Program-made: the position numbers and the translations under genes | Notes under the pieces: model-generated | Told to the model about the DNA's origin: nothing | Database searches by the model: none | The model's input: the letters and a program-made list of their open reading frames with translations, nothing else | Part shown: piece by piece, positions 12,612 through 19,958 of the stretch | Layout: each line of letters opens with the position of its first letter | Numbering within the stretch: the first letter of the stretch is position 1 | Origin: Streptacidiphilus sp. ASG 303 | GTDB lineage: Bacteria; Actinomycetota; Actinomycetes; Streptomycetales; Streptomycetaceae | Reading direction: 5' to 3' | Assembly (NCBI RefSeq): GCF_020991365.1 | Contig: NZ_JAJLRA010000005.1 | Location: forward strand, 248,001 to 312,000 | Length of the DNA: 64,000 nucleotides

Positions 12612-15503
<2,892 letters not shown>

Positions 15504-15557: not shown

Positions 15558-15582
15558 GAAAAAACCCCTCTGCATGAGGGGT
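15558..15582 (-). terminator. Attenuator terminator of leuS leader
   Basis: On the minus strand, ACCCCTC / GAGGGGT with a 5 nt loop is followed by six T residues: a textbook intrinsic terminator. It lies inside the leuS 5' leader, between the leader ORF (stop 15629) and the leuS start (15503). Confidence 0.9.
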
Positions 15583-15588
15583 CGCCGC

Positions 15589-15619
15589 GCCGACTCCGGC
15601 CTGTCCGCCAGGCGTCGGC
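15589..15619 (-). promoter_or_regulatory. Leader hairpin upstream of the leuS attenuator
   Basis: GCCGAC / GTCGGC (15614-15619 with 15589-15594) encloses an inner CCTG / CAGG stem-loop. It starts 9 nt after the leader-peptide stop and ends 6 nt before the terminator stem, the place expected for a pause or competing structure. Confidence 0.6.
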
Positions 15620-15628
15620 CGGTACTGG

Positions 15629-15667
15629 TCAGCGCGGCCGGCTAAGGAGCAGGCGCACGGTTCGCAC
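15629..15667 (-). CDS. leuS leader peptide
   Basis: A 12-residue ORF reading MRTVRLLLSRPR from GTG 15667 to a TGA at 15629, with three consecutive Leu codons (CTG CTC CTT) in the middle. Starvation for charged tRNA-Leu would stall the ribosome there and favour an antiterminator fold, so leuS is induced. No Shine-Dalgarno sequence is visible; a TACCCT -10 box ends 6 nt before the GTG, so the leader ORF is probably translated from the very 5' end of the mRNA. A second GTG at 15658 would give a 9-residue version. Attenuators of this type for leuS have been predicted in some Streptomyces; the reading here is from this sequence. Confidence 0.8.
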   Translation of the reverse strand: MRTVRLLLSRPR

Positions 15668-15673
15668 GGGGTC

Positions 15674-15679
15674 AGGGTA
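15674..15679 (-). promoter_or_regulatory. -10 box of leuS leader transcript
   Basis: TACCCT on the minus strand ends 6 nt before the leader ORF GTG. No convincing -35 was found. Confidence 0.5.
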
Positions 15680-16212
15680 CCGCAGGGGCGCCACGGCCCG
15701 CTCGGACCGCCGGCGGGGCGCCGGAGCCGCACCGGGGAGGGGCGCGCCGCACCGCGCGGACGGGGCGCGCGGGAAGCGGCCGCGCGCCGGGCCGGACCGG
15801 CCGCACCCGGCGACGGGGCGGGCCGGCACAGGGCAGCGGGCGAGGCGTCGCGGGAGCGGGCCGCGCGCACCGGGCGGATGCGCACCGGAGGCCGCCGGGG
15901 AATCCCCCCGGAAATACCCAGGGAATCCTCCGGAAAGGCGGCCGGGGAATTCCCCGGAGGATTCCCCTTTCCCGGGACTCCTTACGGAGGAATGACGACT
16001 GGAGGCCCCTGACGGCAACGGAAGGCGCGCAACATGCCCGCAAAACGGTCATAAGCACCGGCCGCGACCCCTACCCTAAGTGAGTCCTAAGAGGCCCCTA
16101 ACGGTGGCGGTGGAGAATTCCCGGCAATGCCTCCGGGGCCGTTCCGGCCACTGCCGCGGCTATAGCATCGCCGTGTCATCGGCTTTCGGGCCAAGACCCT
16201 GGAGGGCCCCTC
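15680..16212. other. Long divergent spacer between leuS and the redox pair
   Basis: 533 bp without a convincing gene. It holds the leuS promoter, a cluster of GGGAATTCCC-type palindromes (15895-15965) and, nearer the plus-strand gene, three CCTAA-containing motifs (about 16072-16099) and a TATAGC. The last two may belong to the promoter of the redox pair. Confidence 0.5.
15895..15965. promoter_or_regulatory. Cluster of GGAATTCC-type palindromes
   Basis: Contains an imperfect palindrome around GGGGAATCCCC at 15895-15911 and the perfect 16 bp palindrome CCGGGGAATTCCCCGG at 15942-15957. It also contains a 12 bp inverted pair, GGAATCCTCCGG (15922-15933) and CCGGAGGATTCC (15954-15965). A further GAGAATTCCCGG lies near 16112. 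Confidence 0.55.
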
Positions 16213-17967
16213 GTGAACACCAAGAGCACCCAGCCGCGCCGGCGCGCCGCACTGCGGGGCGCGGCCCGCCTCCGCGACGCAGCCACCGGAGGGGGCGGCG
16301 GCCTCAAACGCCTGCCGTTCCCGCTGTTCCTGGTGCTCGTCACCGTCTCGGTGACCATCACGTCGACGGCCGTGCGGGCCTTCTCCAGCCCGGCCGGCAA
16401 GTCGTGGATGGACAGCGCGTCGCTCGGGGTCCTCAACTTCCTCGACTTCTTCATCGGCGTGGTCACCCTCGTCTCGCTCACCGGCTCGGTGGTGTGGGGG
16501 CTGATCTCGACCAACCAGTCGGTCCTCAAGCCGCACCAGCGGGTCTTCTCGCAGGCCGTGCACCGCGGCATCTCCACCGCGGCCCTAGCGGCGCTCCTCC
16601 TCCACATCCTGGTGAAGATCTCGTTCGGCGAGGCCGCGCCGGTCGACGGCGTCATCCCGCTGGGCGGGGTCGGCACACCGGTGGCCGTGGGGCTGGGCAC
16701 CGTCGCCGCGTACCTGATGGTCGGCGTCGCCGTCACCGGCATCCTGCGCAGCAGGTTCGCCCACGGCCGGTACCCGTGGATCTGGCGGCCGGTCCACGTC
16801 ATGGGCTACGCGTCCTGGCTCATCGGCCTCACGCACGGGCTCACCGCCGGACGGCCCGGCAAGTGGTACGTCCTGTGGGGCTACGGGCTCTGCGTGGCGG
16901 CCGTCGCGCTCGCCGTGCTGGTCCGCGCCCTCGGCAACACGGGCAAGAGCGCGGCGGAGCTGGAGTCGACCCGCAGGCTGATGGCCCGCGACCTGGTGGT
17001 CGGCCCCGGCGGGGCCGACCGCCGCCCGGCCGCGGCGCGGAGCGGGGCGGCCGCCGGCACCGCCCGGGACATCCCGCTCACCCGCGACCTCCCGATCCCC
17101 GGGCCGACCGGGGCGGAGCCCGCGGCCCCCTCCGCACCGGAGCCGACCACCGTCATGCCGGCCGCGCCGTCGTACGCGGCGGAGCCCGGGGCGGTCCCGG
17201 CCGCCGAACCGGTCCGGCCGGCCGTGCAGCAGCCGGAGCCCGTGCAGCCGCAGCAGCCGCTGTACGCACAGCCCGTCGCGGCGCAGCAGCAGCCCGTCCT
17301 CCAGCCGACCGGGTCGGTGGTCGACACGGGCGAGTTCTCCGCGCGCTTCGCCGCCGAGTGGGACACCGGTGAGCTCAACGCGCTGCTCGACGCCGGGCAG
17401 CGGCAGTACGCGGCGGCGCAGGCCGCGGGCGTCCCGTACACCGGCGACCCCTACGCCGCCGCCCAGCAGGCGGTGGCGGCGCAGCAGGCGGCCGCGCAGT
17501 ACCAGGCCTCCCAGCCCCTGACGGCGCAGCCCGTGATGCCCCAGCCCGCGATGGCGCAGCCCGTGCCCGCGCCGGCCTCCCAGCCGACGGCGCCCCAGGC
17601 CGCACCGCAGGCGTACGCCGCACCGCAGGCGTACGCCGCCGGCGGGTACCCGGCGGCCGGGCAGCAGCCCTACGCGGGCTACGCCGCCGACCCGTTCTCC
17701 ACGGGCGCCGTGCCGCAGGTGCAGGCCCCGGGCGTCACCCTCGGCGCGGCCGCGGCCCCGCTGCAGTACCTCCCGCCGACCGCCCCGGCGGACCCCTTCG
17801 CCACCGGCTCCTTCCCCCAGATGCCGGCCACCGGGTACGGCTACCCCGCGGCCCCCCAGCCGCAGCCGGCCCCGATGCCCGGCCCCGCTCCCGCCGCCCC
17901 CGGCGCCGGACCGGCCTACGGCCAGGTCCCGGCCGCCTACTCCGCCGACCCCTGGCAGGCCCGCTGA
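16213..17967 (+). CDS. Ferric-reductase-like di-heme membrane protein with long Pro/Gln/Ala tail
   Basis: A 584-residue protein. Six membrane helices lie in residues 34-240, and two His pairs suit two stacked hemes: H117/H131 (x13) and H195/H208 (x12), as in ferric-reductase-like and YedZ-type cytochromes. Residues about 245-584 form an unusual cytoplasmic tail rich in Pro, Ala and Gln with repeated short motifs such as ADPFSTGAVPQ and ADPFATGSFPQ. GTG at 16213 has GGAGG upstream. Its stop overlaps the start of the next gene (TGATG), so the two are made together. Likely role: transmembrane electron transfer with the flavoprotein as donor; the acceptor is unknown. Confidence 0.8.
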   Translation: MNTKSTQPRRRAALRGAARLRDAATGGGGGLKRLPFPLFLVLVTVSVTITSTAVRAFSSPAGKSWMDSASLGVLNFLDFFIGVVTLVSLTGSVVWGLISTNQSVLKPHQRVFSQAVHRGISTAALAALLLHILVKISFGEAAPVDGVIPLGGVGTPVAVGLGTVAAYLMVGVAVTGILRSRFAHGRYPWIWRPVHVMGYASWLIGLTHGLTAGRPGKWYVLWGYGLCVAAVALAVLVRALGNTGKSAAELESTRRLMARDLVVGPGGADRRPAAARSGAAAGTARDIPLTRDLPIPGPTGAEPAAPSAPEPTTVMPAAPSYAAEPGAVPAAEPVRPAVQQPEPVQPQQPLYAQPVAAQQQPVLQPTGSVVDTGEFSARFAAEWDTGELNALLDAGQRQYAAAQAAGVPYTGDPYAAAQQAVAAQQAAAQYQASQPLTAQPVMPQPAMAQPVPAPASQPTAPQAAPQAYAAPQAYAAGGYPAAGQQPYAGYAADPFSTGAVPQVQAPGVTLGAAAAPLQYLPPTAPADPFATGSFPQMPATGYGYPAAPQPQPAPMPGPAPAAPGAGPAYGQVPAAYSADPWQAR

Positions 17968-19481
17968 TGACCACCCCCGCCGTGACCGACGTCCCGGAGG
18001 TCCTCCGGATCGGCCCCGCCCGGCTGACCGCCGGCCTGGACGCCGACCTCCGGCTCGACCACGCCGCGCACCAGCGCGCCCACGGCCCCCTCCCCCGCTA
18101 CGACCTCGACGGCCTGATCGCGCTCGCCGAGAAGATCAAGCTGAAGGGCAAGGGCGGCGCGGGCTTCCCCTTCGCCCGCAAGCTCCAGGCCGTCGTCCGG
18201 ACGGTGGAGCGCCAGCGGATCGCCCCCGCCGTCGTGGTCAACGCCACGGAGGGCGAGCCGGGCAGCGCCAAGGACCGCATGCTGCTGGCCCGCGCCCCGC
18301 ACGTCATCCTCGACGGGGCGGGCCTGGTCGCGGACGCCCTGGGCGCGGCCTCCCTCGCGATCGGCGTCGACGAGGGGAGCCCCGGCGTCACCTCGATGCC
18401 GCCCGCCGTGGCCGAGCGCAGCTGGGACATCCCGGTACGGGTGGTCTGCCAGCCCGACCGGTTCACCTCCGGCGAGGGCGGCTCCCTGGTCCGCGGCGTC
18501 AACGGCCTGCCCGCCATCCCCCCGAGCCGCAAGATCCGCACCTCGGACGGCGGCAACGGCGGCGTCGACGGGCGCCCCACCCTGCTGTCCAACGCGGAGA
18601 CCTTCGCGCAGCTGGGCATCGCGGCCCGCCTCGGCCCCGACGCCTACGCGGTGATCGGCACCGCGGCCGAGCCCGGCACCGTCCTGCTCACGGTCAACCG
18701 CCCCGACGCCGGCCGGCCGCTGGTCGTGGAGGCCCCCGCGGGCACCCTCCTCGGCGACGTGCTGGACGCCGCCGGGGTCTCCCCCGGACAGGGCGTGCTG
18801 GTCGGCGGGTACCACGGCATGTTCCTGGACGCCGACGCCGCCGTGAGGGCGCCCTGCTCCCGCGCCGGCATGTCCGCCGCGGGCGGCTCCTTCGGCGCGG
18901 GCATCGTCATCCCCGTCCCCGAGGACACCTGCCCGCTGGGCGAGGCCGCGCGGATCGCCGAGTGGCTGGCCGTCCAGTCCGCCGGGCAGTGCGGGCCGTG
19001 CCGGATGGGCCTGCCCGACCTGGCCCGGGTCCTCACCGACCTCGCCAACGGCGGCGGCGGCACCCGCGCCCTGGAGGAGGCCCGCCGGATCGCGGGCGGT
19101 GTGATCGGGCAGGGCGCCTGCTCGCACCCGGACGGCTCGTCCCGCTTCATCCTCTCCGCGCTCACCGCCTTCACCGACGACCTGGCCAACCACAGCCTGC
19201 GCGGCGGCTGCGGGCGCCGGGTGCGGGGGGTGATGCCGCTCTCCCCGTGGGGGCCGGGACAGGACCAGGACCACCTCGGCGGCCCCACCCTGGTGGTCGA
19301 CTGGCAGCGGTGCCGGGCGCACGGGCTGTGCGCCGCCCTGGCACCCGAGCTGTTCAGCCTGGACGCCCACGGCTTCCCCGTGGTCAGCAACGCCCCCATC
19401 CCGGTCTGGCTGGAGAGCGAGGCCAAGCGGGCCGTCAACCAGTGCCCGGCGCTGGCGCTCCGCTTCGGCAGGGACCGCTGA
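17967..19481 (+). CDS. NuoF-like SLBB flavoprotein fused to a ferredoxin domain
   Basis: A 504-residue protein related to the NADH-binding NuoF subunit: FMN loop KGKGGAGFP at 60-68, NATEGEPGSAKDR at 92-104, an SLBB region around 240-290, and the C-terminal iron-sulfur domain. In NuoF the cluster is held by C-x2-C-x2-C-x39/40-C. Here C342, C345 and C385 are present, but the first position is Ala339 (SAGQCGPC). The last 65 residues form a small ferredoxin with C449, C455 and C493-P, the three-cysteine pattern of [3Fe-4S] ferredoxins. Translation is coupled to the di-heme membrane gene. It probably oxidises NAD(P)H and feeds the membrane hemes; the nucleotide is not proven. Confidence 0.82.
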   Translation: MTTPAVTDVPEVLRIGPARLTAGLDADLRLDHAAHQRAHGPLPRYDLDGLIALAEKIKLKGKGGAGFPFARKLQAVVRTVERQRIAPAVVVNATEGEPGSAKDRMLLARAPHVILDGAGLVADALGAASLAIGVDEGSPGVTSMPPAVAERSWDIPVRVVCQPDRFTSGEGGSLVRGVNGLPAIPPSRKIRTSDGGNGGVDGRPTLLSNAETFAQLGIAARLGPDAYAVIGTAAEPGTVLLTVNRPDAGRPLVVEAPAGTLLGDVLDAAGVSPGQGVLVGGYHGMFLDADAAVRAPCSRAGMSAAGGSFGAGIVIPVPEDTCPLGEAARIAEWLAVQSAGQCGPCRMGLPDLARVLTDLANGGGGTRALEEARRIAGGVIGQGACSHPDGSSRFILSALTAFTDDLANHSLRGGCGRRVRGVMPLSPWGPGQDQDHLGGPTLVVDWQRCRAHGLCAALAPELFSLDAHGFPVVSNAPIPVWLESEAKRAVNQCPALALRFGRDR

Positions 19482-19565: not shown

Positions 19566-19575
19566 GCGAATCCTG

Positions 19576-19648
<73 letters not shown>

Positions 19649-19705
19649 TCGACCTGCTGCGCCGCCGGTCCGGAGGCCTTTCGGACCTCCCCGGCGACAC
19701 CGCTC

Positions 19706-19711
19706 ACTCTA
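19706..19711 (-). promoter_or_regulatory. -10 box for the downstream tRNA-Ala copy
   Basis: TAGAGT on the minus strand with a CGTGGA 17 bp upstream, about 58 bp before the tRNA at 19648. A hairpin at 19766 separates this copy from the tandem pair, so it needs its own promoter. Confidence 0.45.
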
Positions 19712-19765
19712 CACGGTCGCGGGGCCGGTCCACGAATCCCTTACCGGCGCGGGGGCGAACGCGGA

Positions 19766-19798
19766 ACGGGCCGCCTCCCGGTCTGGGAGGCGGCCCGT
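19766..19798 (-). terminator. Terminator after the tandem tRNA-Ala pair
   Basis: A perfect 14 bp stem (19766-19779 with 19785-19798) around a 5 nt loop, 13 nt past the second tRNA-Ala gene. Confidence 0.8.
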
Positions 19799-19811
19799 CT
19801 CGCGGTCGCTG

Positions 19812-19884
<73 letters not shown>

Positions 19885-19885
19885 G

Positions 19886-19958
<73 letters not shown>

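Follow-up and report, generated by a model that had tools for sequence, protein, structure and literature searches.

Does the segment directly upstream of leuS in Streptacidiphilus sp. ASG 303 make expression of this gene dependent on leucine and, if so, how would a ribosome on the leader act on termination? The window analyzed here is a 64,000-nucleotide stretch of the genome. The leader element is situated on its minus strand, 5' of leuS (15503..12612, -). The coordinates and parts described in the first-pass annotation are accurate, and all of the parts are found on the minus strand, the strand itself being missing from that description.

The element begins with a -10 box of the TANNNT type, TACCCT (15674..15679), recognized in the sequence and in homologous leaders. 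The spacer GACCCC (15673-15668) separates it from the GTG start of a 12-codon leader ORF, leuL (15629..15667), which encodes MRTVRLLLSRPR, ends in a stop codon and has orthologues in Streptomycetaceae. The codons of leuL are GTG CGA ACC GTG CGC CTG CTC CTT AGC CGG CCG CGC TGA, in which the control codons CTG CTC CTT (15644..15652) correspond to Leu6-8 with CTT as the last. The final 10 nt of leuL, including the stop TGA, form the 5' arm of a hairpin, P1 (GCCGCGCTGA, 15629..15638), the 3' arm of which (TCGGCGCGGC, 15584..15593) abuts an intrinsic terminator. Both arms were delineated by folding and covariation. The terminator, found by a terminator scan and by covariation, is an 8-bp hairpin, GACCCCTC-ATGCA-GAGGGGTT (15563..15583), and includes a T6 tract (15559..15564). 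The putatively regulated gene, leuS (12612..15503), encodes a protein that has the PF13603 editing domain and matches TIGR00396 at 885.7 bits, showing that it is a genuine leucine--tRNA ligase.

The minimum free energy fold of the minus-strand leader contains both P1 and the terminator and has an energy of -58 kcal/mol (z = -2.4; 5 of 200 shuffles were equal to it). Folding of the plus strand across the region, opposite to the strand of leuS, was not better than shuffles. Upon scanning from the box to leuS with a terminator consensus, 15583-15563 with its T6 tract was the sole terminator-like site. When the 400 nt 5' of leuS were shuffled 3000 times with dinucleotide composition preserved, LLL-containing ORFs of 6-20 codons appeared seven times; none had TANNNT at 6-7 nt, and box, ORF and terminator never occurred together. 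The arrangement of the leuS leader is not due to chance.

Rfam covariance models gave no match between 15450 and 15750 even at E up to 5, and at the gathering score they found tRNAs alone in the 64-kb window. The lack of an Rfam match at the leuS leader speaks against a T-box or another Rfam riboregulator. Three tRNA-Ala(GGC) genes, two of them directly adjacent, are located at 19575-19958 (-).

The distribution of the element was established by retrieving 80 named leuS loci for leader comparison. It is present in all 64 loci from Streptomycetaceae-like genomes and also in eight others, namely those of Hamadaea, two Catellatospora, Plantactinospora, Paractinoplanes, a Micromonosporaceae MAG, Jiangella and Austwickia. 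No leader match was found in the remaining eight loci, from Aeromicrobium (2), Cellulomonas (2), Actinomyces, Sediminivirga, Saccharopolyspora and one MAG. A covariance model of the leader, R1, has matches in 98 of 247 genomes of the class, representing 40 of 96 genera and including 24 of 24 genomes of the window's own family. Sampling across the phylum yielded a single strong match beyond the class (G324, E 3.2e-10), along with two marginal ones. The R1 score of the window, itself a row of that model, is 94.1 bits.

Downstream of the aligned R1 matches, a LeuS-like ORF lies on the same strand in 80 out of 82 cases. The other two matches are weak (27-29 bits), and the Leu-rich ORF in them is of a different type; possibly these are leuA leaders. 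Since intrinsic terminators are common between genes, the terminator might be attributed to an upstream operon unrelated to leuS. However, the nearest upstream gene is divergent (an ORF at 16213, +), so that the terminator belongs to the leuS leader, and the element accompanies leuS as just described; membership in another operon is hardly conceivable.

About 35 of the downstream LeuS proteins are close to that of the window (>60% identical in the part that aligns), while many others form a second, diverged lineage with roughly 33-50% identity to it. For two examples of the diverged lineage, both of them partial proteins and one under the full-length cut-off, the best match was leuS_bact. In the genome G191 the two diverged leuS genes occur together, and a leuL leader precedes each of them (L168 = G191:C30; G191:C5:472929-473032). 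Judged from the sequences, the occurrence of the same leader before two LeuS lineages suggests either gene replacement in place or independent recruitment.

The two hairpins are conserved as structures. In the 82-row alignment, which was fitted to the structure and hence leans towards it, 98.8% of the cells are paired and 10 of 15 pairs show changes on both sides (70 cells), a level of covariation that none of the shuffled and slid controls came near. Compensatory double changes occur in five of the nine modelled pairs of P1 and in five of the six modelled pairs of the terminator. In an un-fitted MAFFT alignment of 23 leaders, C-G to U-A replacements are already seen in P1. The gap between the P1 3' arm and the six-pair core of the terminator is 1-4 nt in all leaders and 2 nt in 65 of them. 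Conservation of the terminator in relatives, a point on which the first-pass annotation had made its proposal depend, thus extends to P1, both hairpins covarying across the 82 leaders.

The leader peptides of the Streptomycetaceae-like genomes are mostly MRAVRLLLS[EG]PR. At the last Leu codon, 71 of the 82 leaders have CTT, 10 have CTC and one, a truncated locus (L197), has CTG. The codon CTT is very rare in the genes that follow: it makes up 3 of 4681 Leu codons (0.06%) in 62 leuS genes, and CTG 96%. The last Leu codon is situated 5 nt before P1 in 78 of 82 leaders. The stop codon of leuL ends 10 nt into P1 in 62 leaders, at the first nucleotide of P1 in 12, and further downstream in eight. 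With the 5-nt distance fixed and the stop position variable, what is conserved is the position of the stall site with respect to P1. The run of Leu codons, the other feature whose conservation had been called for, is likewise kept across families while the length and stop of the ORF vary. According to a theory reportedly put forward by Elf and colleagues, the control codons of leaders are those read by the isoacceptor whose charging drops first. The preference for CTT fits sensing via the tRNA isoacceptor that reads CUU and CUC; an alternative reason for it would be the need to keep the 5' end unstructured.

These regularities bear on whether leuL is only incidental, the hairpins being a constitutive terminator or an element for RNA stability and leuS not being regulated by leucine. 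The stability of the terminator in every modelled state (see below) agrees with such a view, as does the behaviour of the S. coelicolor ilvB leader, where changes of putative control codons are reported to have been without effect (cited in PMC1262725). An incidental ORF is nevertheless improbable, because the Leu run, its last codon and the 5-nt distance to P1 have been maintained across families in which ORF length and stop differ.

A TANNNT box precedes the start codon at 6 nt (54 leaders) or 7 nt (27 leaders), that is, in 81 of 82 leaders, and there are practically none at other spacings within 50 nt upstream. Start codons were picked with preference for candidates having a box at 4-9 nt, and the presence of a box is therefore somewhat favoured, while its restriction to 6 or 7 nt is unaffected. 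No -35 element is recognizable, nTGAC at 17 nt being found in 2 of 82 leaders. A sigma-70 consensus scan of the leuS leader region gave no promoter, as expected for a TANNNT-type site without a -35. In many leuL promoters, which lack a -35, TGCG[GC] stands right before TANNNT (15684-15674 in the window), and may be a promoter signature.

In S. lividans the mean distance from the -10 to the transcription start is 6.3 nt, and a -10 sequence was detected for 93.4% of the leaderless genes (PMC8079986). The leuL2 ORF upstream of leuS in that species (MRAVRLLLSEPR) is leaderless according to 5'-end RNA-seq and is followed by a hairpin and a uridine stretch (PMC8079986, 2021). Together with the 6-7 nt spacing, this report makes it very probable that leuL is translated leaderlessly in ASG 303. 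The absence of a Shine-Dalgarno sequence was noted correctly, as the 6 nt between box and GTG leave no space for one. A transcript that starts further upstream, with leuL reached in another way, would be in keeping with the lack of a recognized -35; it is very improbable in the face of the box spacing, the missing space for a Shine-Dalgarno sequence and the leaderless S. lividans orthologue. The leaderless start, singled out by the first-pass annotation as the feature worth checking, is thus well supported as a prediction for ASG 303, but had already been published for S. lividans leuL2.

The fixed TANNNT spacing, the conserved Leu run and the covarying P1 and terminator support the interpretation that the leuS leader is, quite probably, a leucine-responsive attenuator coupled to translation. 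With the parts, their spacing, the covariation of the hairpins and the link to leuS given by comparison of the leaders, the following course may be envisaged for the leaderless start, the stalling and the readthrough. RNA polymerase would start at or next to the GTG, and a 70S ribosome would begin leuL without any leader. When Leu-tRNA is sufficient, the ribosome would finish leuL and leave, P1 and the terminator would fold, and most transcripts would end before leuS. When Leu-tRNA, probably the CUU/CUC isoacceptor, is short, the ribosome would stall at the last Leu codon, 5 nt before P1. The leading edge of the stalled ribosome would cover the base of P1, and the polymerase would read through into leuS. 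With the A site occupied by the last Leu codon, and an assumed footprint of 12 nt counted from the start of that codon, the stalled ribosome would hide about the first four nucleotides of P1. P1 may assist the terminator next to it, either by stacking on it or by guiding its folding, and the stalled ribosome would remove that help. This assistance by P1, the reading favoured here, is the least certain part of the mechanism and is plausible rather than probable.

An antiterminator was sought by masking the ribosome-covered nucleotides in the 82 leaders, but the median terminator probability was 0.997 in both the naked and the stalled state, and masking lowered it by more than 0.3 in one leader alone. 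In 78 leaders, comparison of the two terminator arms with the upstream RNA showed no excess complementarity over shuffles (mean z +0.55 and +0.10); for P1, the positive control of this procedure, the mean z was -3.5. Because the terminator is stable under masking and its arms show no such complementarity, simple alternative pairing does not explain the switch. P1 and the terminator appear in the models as compatible, abutting hairpins that are not mutually exclusive. The alternative pairing that the first-pass annotation expected was therefore not found by masking or by complementarity, and its statement that every part of an attenuator is visible holds for the leader ORF, P1 and the terminator, but not for an antiterminator. 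Pairing of the P1 3' arm with the terminator loop was considered as a general mechanism and rejected, as it is lost in the window's own clade and in others.

The switching step might instead be that of a classical trp-type attenuator, in which a true antiterminator excludes the terminator and forms upon stalling of the ribosome. Of the features of that type, the leuS leader has the ORF with control codons and the intrinsic terminator after it, and a mutually exclusive antiterminator was not found computationally, either by masking or by complementarity. Antiterminator and terminator hairpins are assigned to the leuS leaders of S. coelicolor and S. avermitilis in PMC1262725. In many Streptomyces the P1 3' arm (GCGCGG) can pair with the terminator loop (CUGUGC), and could form a kinetic antiterminator. 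Kinetic folding could thus be the bridge between that published assignment and the masking and complementarity results. However, the window, with its loop AUGCA, lacks this loop pairing, as do Kitasatospora and the short-stop lineages. Excess upstream complementarity is seen for neither terminator arm, and the terminator probability stays near 1 under masking, so that a trp-type switch appears rather unlikely.

The combined proposal, of a widespread actinobacterial attenuator without an antiterminator in which a leaderless ribosome stalled on a rare CUU codon gates a tandem-hairpin terminator by blocking the P1 that it needs, and which was kept or re-acquired before two LeuS lineages, is a tentative and somewhat doubtful one. 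Experiments on the general architecture are split. The codon changes without effect mentioned above were made in the similarly built ilvB leader of S. coelicolor, whereas changed LVVI codons abolish induction in the ilvB1 leader of M. tuberculosis (PMC13236596). No direct experiment on a leuS leader was found in the literature.

A 2005 study predicted attenuators upstream of leuS in S. coelicolor and S. avermitilis (PMC1262725), in agreement with the statement in the first-pass annotation that such predictions exist for some Streptomyces. Like the leader in the window, these have an ORF with Leu codons and a terminator before leuS; they differ in the antiterminator assigned to them, none having been found in the family here by folding or complementarity. 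A close counterpart is leuL2-leuS of S. lividans TK24 (PMC8079986), with a 12-codon peptide containing three Leu (MRAVRLLLSEPR compared to MRTVRLLLSRPR), a hairpin with a U-tract, and the same gene. The window thus has the Leu-run ORF directly before leuS and the hairpin and U-tract terminator that characterize leuL2-leuS in Streptomycetaceae. Two of the twelve residues differ (A3T, E10R), the start codon is GTG instead of the ATG of most Streptomyces leaders fetched, and the terminator loop reads AUGCA where CUGUGC is usual.

The actinobacterial ilvB attenuators likewise have a short ORF containing codons for branched-chain amino acids and, right before the terminator, a hairpin similar to P1, but regulate acetolactate synthase and sense Val, Ile and Leu. 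The M. tuberculosis ilvB1 model has a stated antiterminator (PMC13236596), unlike the leuS leader described here. The ASG 303 genome has its own ilvB leader, encoding MRTRILVLGGRVG and a stop (G000:C167:320863-320976; L167:1364-1477), which the leuS model detected with a score of 42.7 bits and which has P1 and a terminator in the layout of the leuS leader, upstream of an acetolactate synthase-like ORF. CTT is also used in this leader (ATC CTT GTA CTT). The leaderless polycysteine ORFs of mycobacterial attenuators (PMC9031893) resemble leuL as short leaderless ORFs in which the speed of translation senses an amino acid; they differ in sensing cysteine and in controlling other operons, and the mycobacterial cys leaders are without a conserved terminator hairpin (PMC1262725). 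The LEU element, or leuL1-leuA leader, has a Leu-rich short ORF that is leaderless in S. lividans, but precedes leuA, has no typical intrinsic terminator and is proposed to form a pseudoknot (PMC1262725, PMC8079986). The presence of a terminator and the identity of the gene as leuS set the leader in the window apart from a LEU element. The leuA leader ORF of the ASG 303 genome (MRYGLLLLSC..., G000:C156:222519-222541; L217, minus strand near 1523-1478) reads CTG CTT CTT CTT, with CTT where leuS genes use CTG.

The leuS leader is real, conserved and functionally coherent. If it is an attenuator, it would couple the charging of Leu-tRNA to the supply of the charging enzyme by way of leaderless translation. 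Such translation is common in actinobacteria and, to our knowledge, has rarely been tied to a defined function. If the reading without an antiterminator is true, attenuation can be built by hairpin assistance instead of alternative pairing. Which tRNA is sensed, and how a stalled ribosome can prevent termination, are questions on which the conserved rare CUU codon and the missing antiterminator bear. The predicted leuS attenuators of Streptomyces (PMC1262725) and the leaderless leuL2 (PMC8079986) were already known. What is new is the breadth across many actinobacterial families with the tie to two diverged LeuS lineages, the near-constant use of the rare CTT as last Leu codon with a fixed distance of 5 nt to P1, and the finding that no antiterminator pairing is detectable.

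The region that separates leuS from the divergent gene at 16213 contains nested inverted repeats (15887-15967), with perfect arms of 13 nt, arms of 26 nt that match at 81%, and GGGGAATTCCCC-like motifs. The divergent gene (16213-17967) encodes a probable membrane protein with no Pfam match, and lies beside a gene for a NuoF-like protein (17967-19481) that has a C-terminal 4Fe-4S ferredoxin-type domain.
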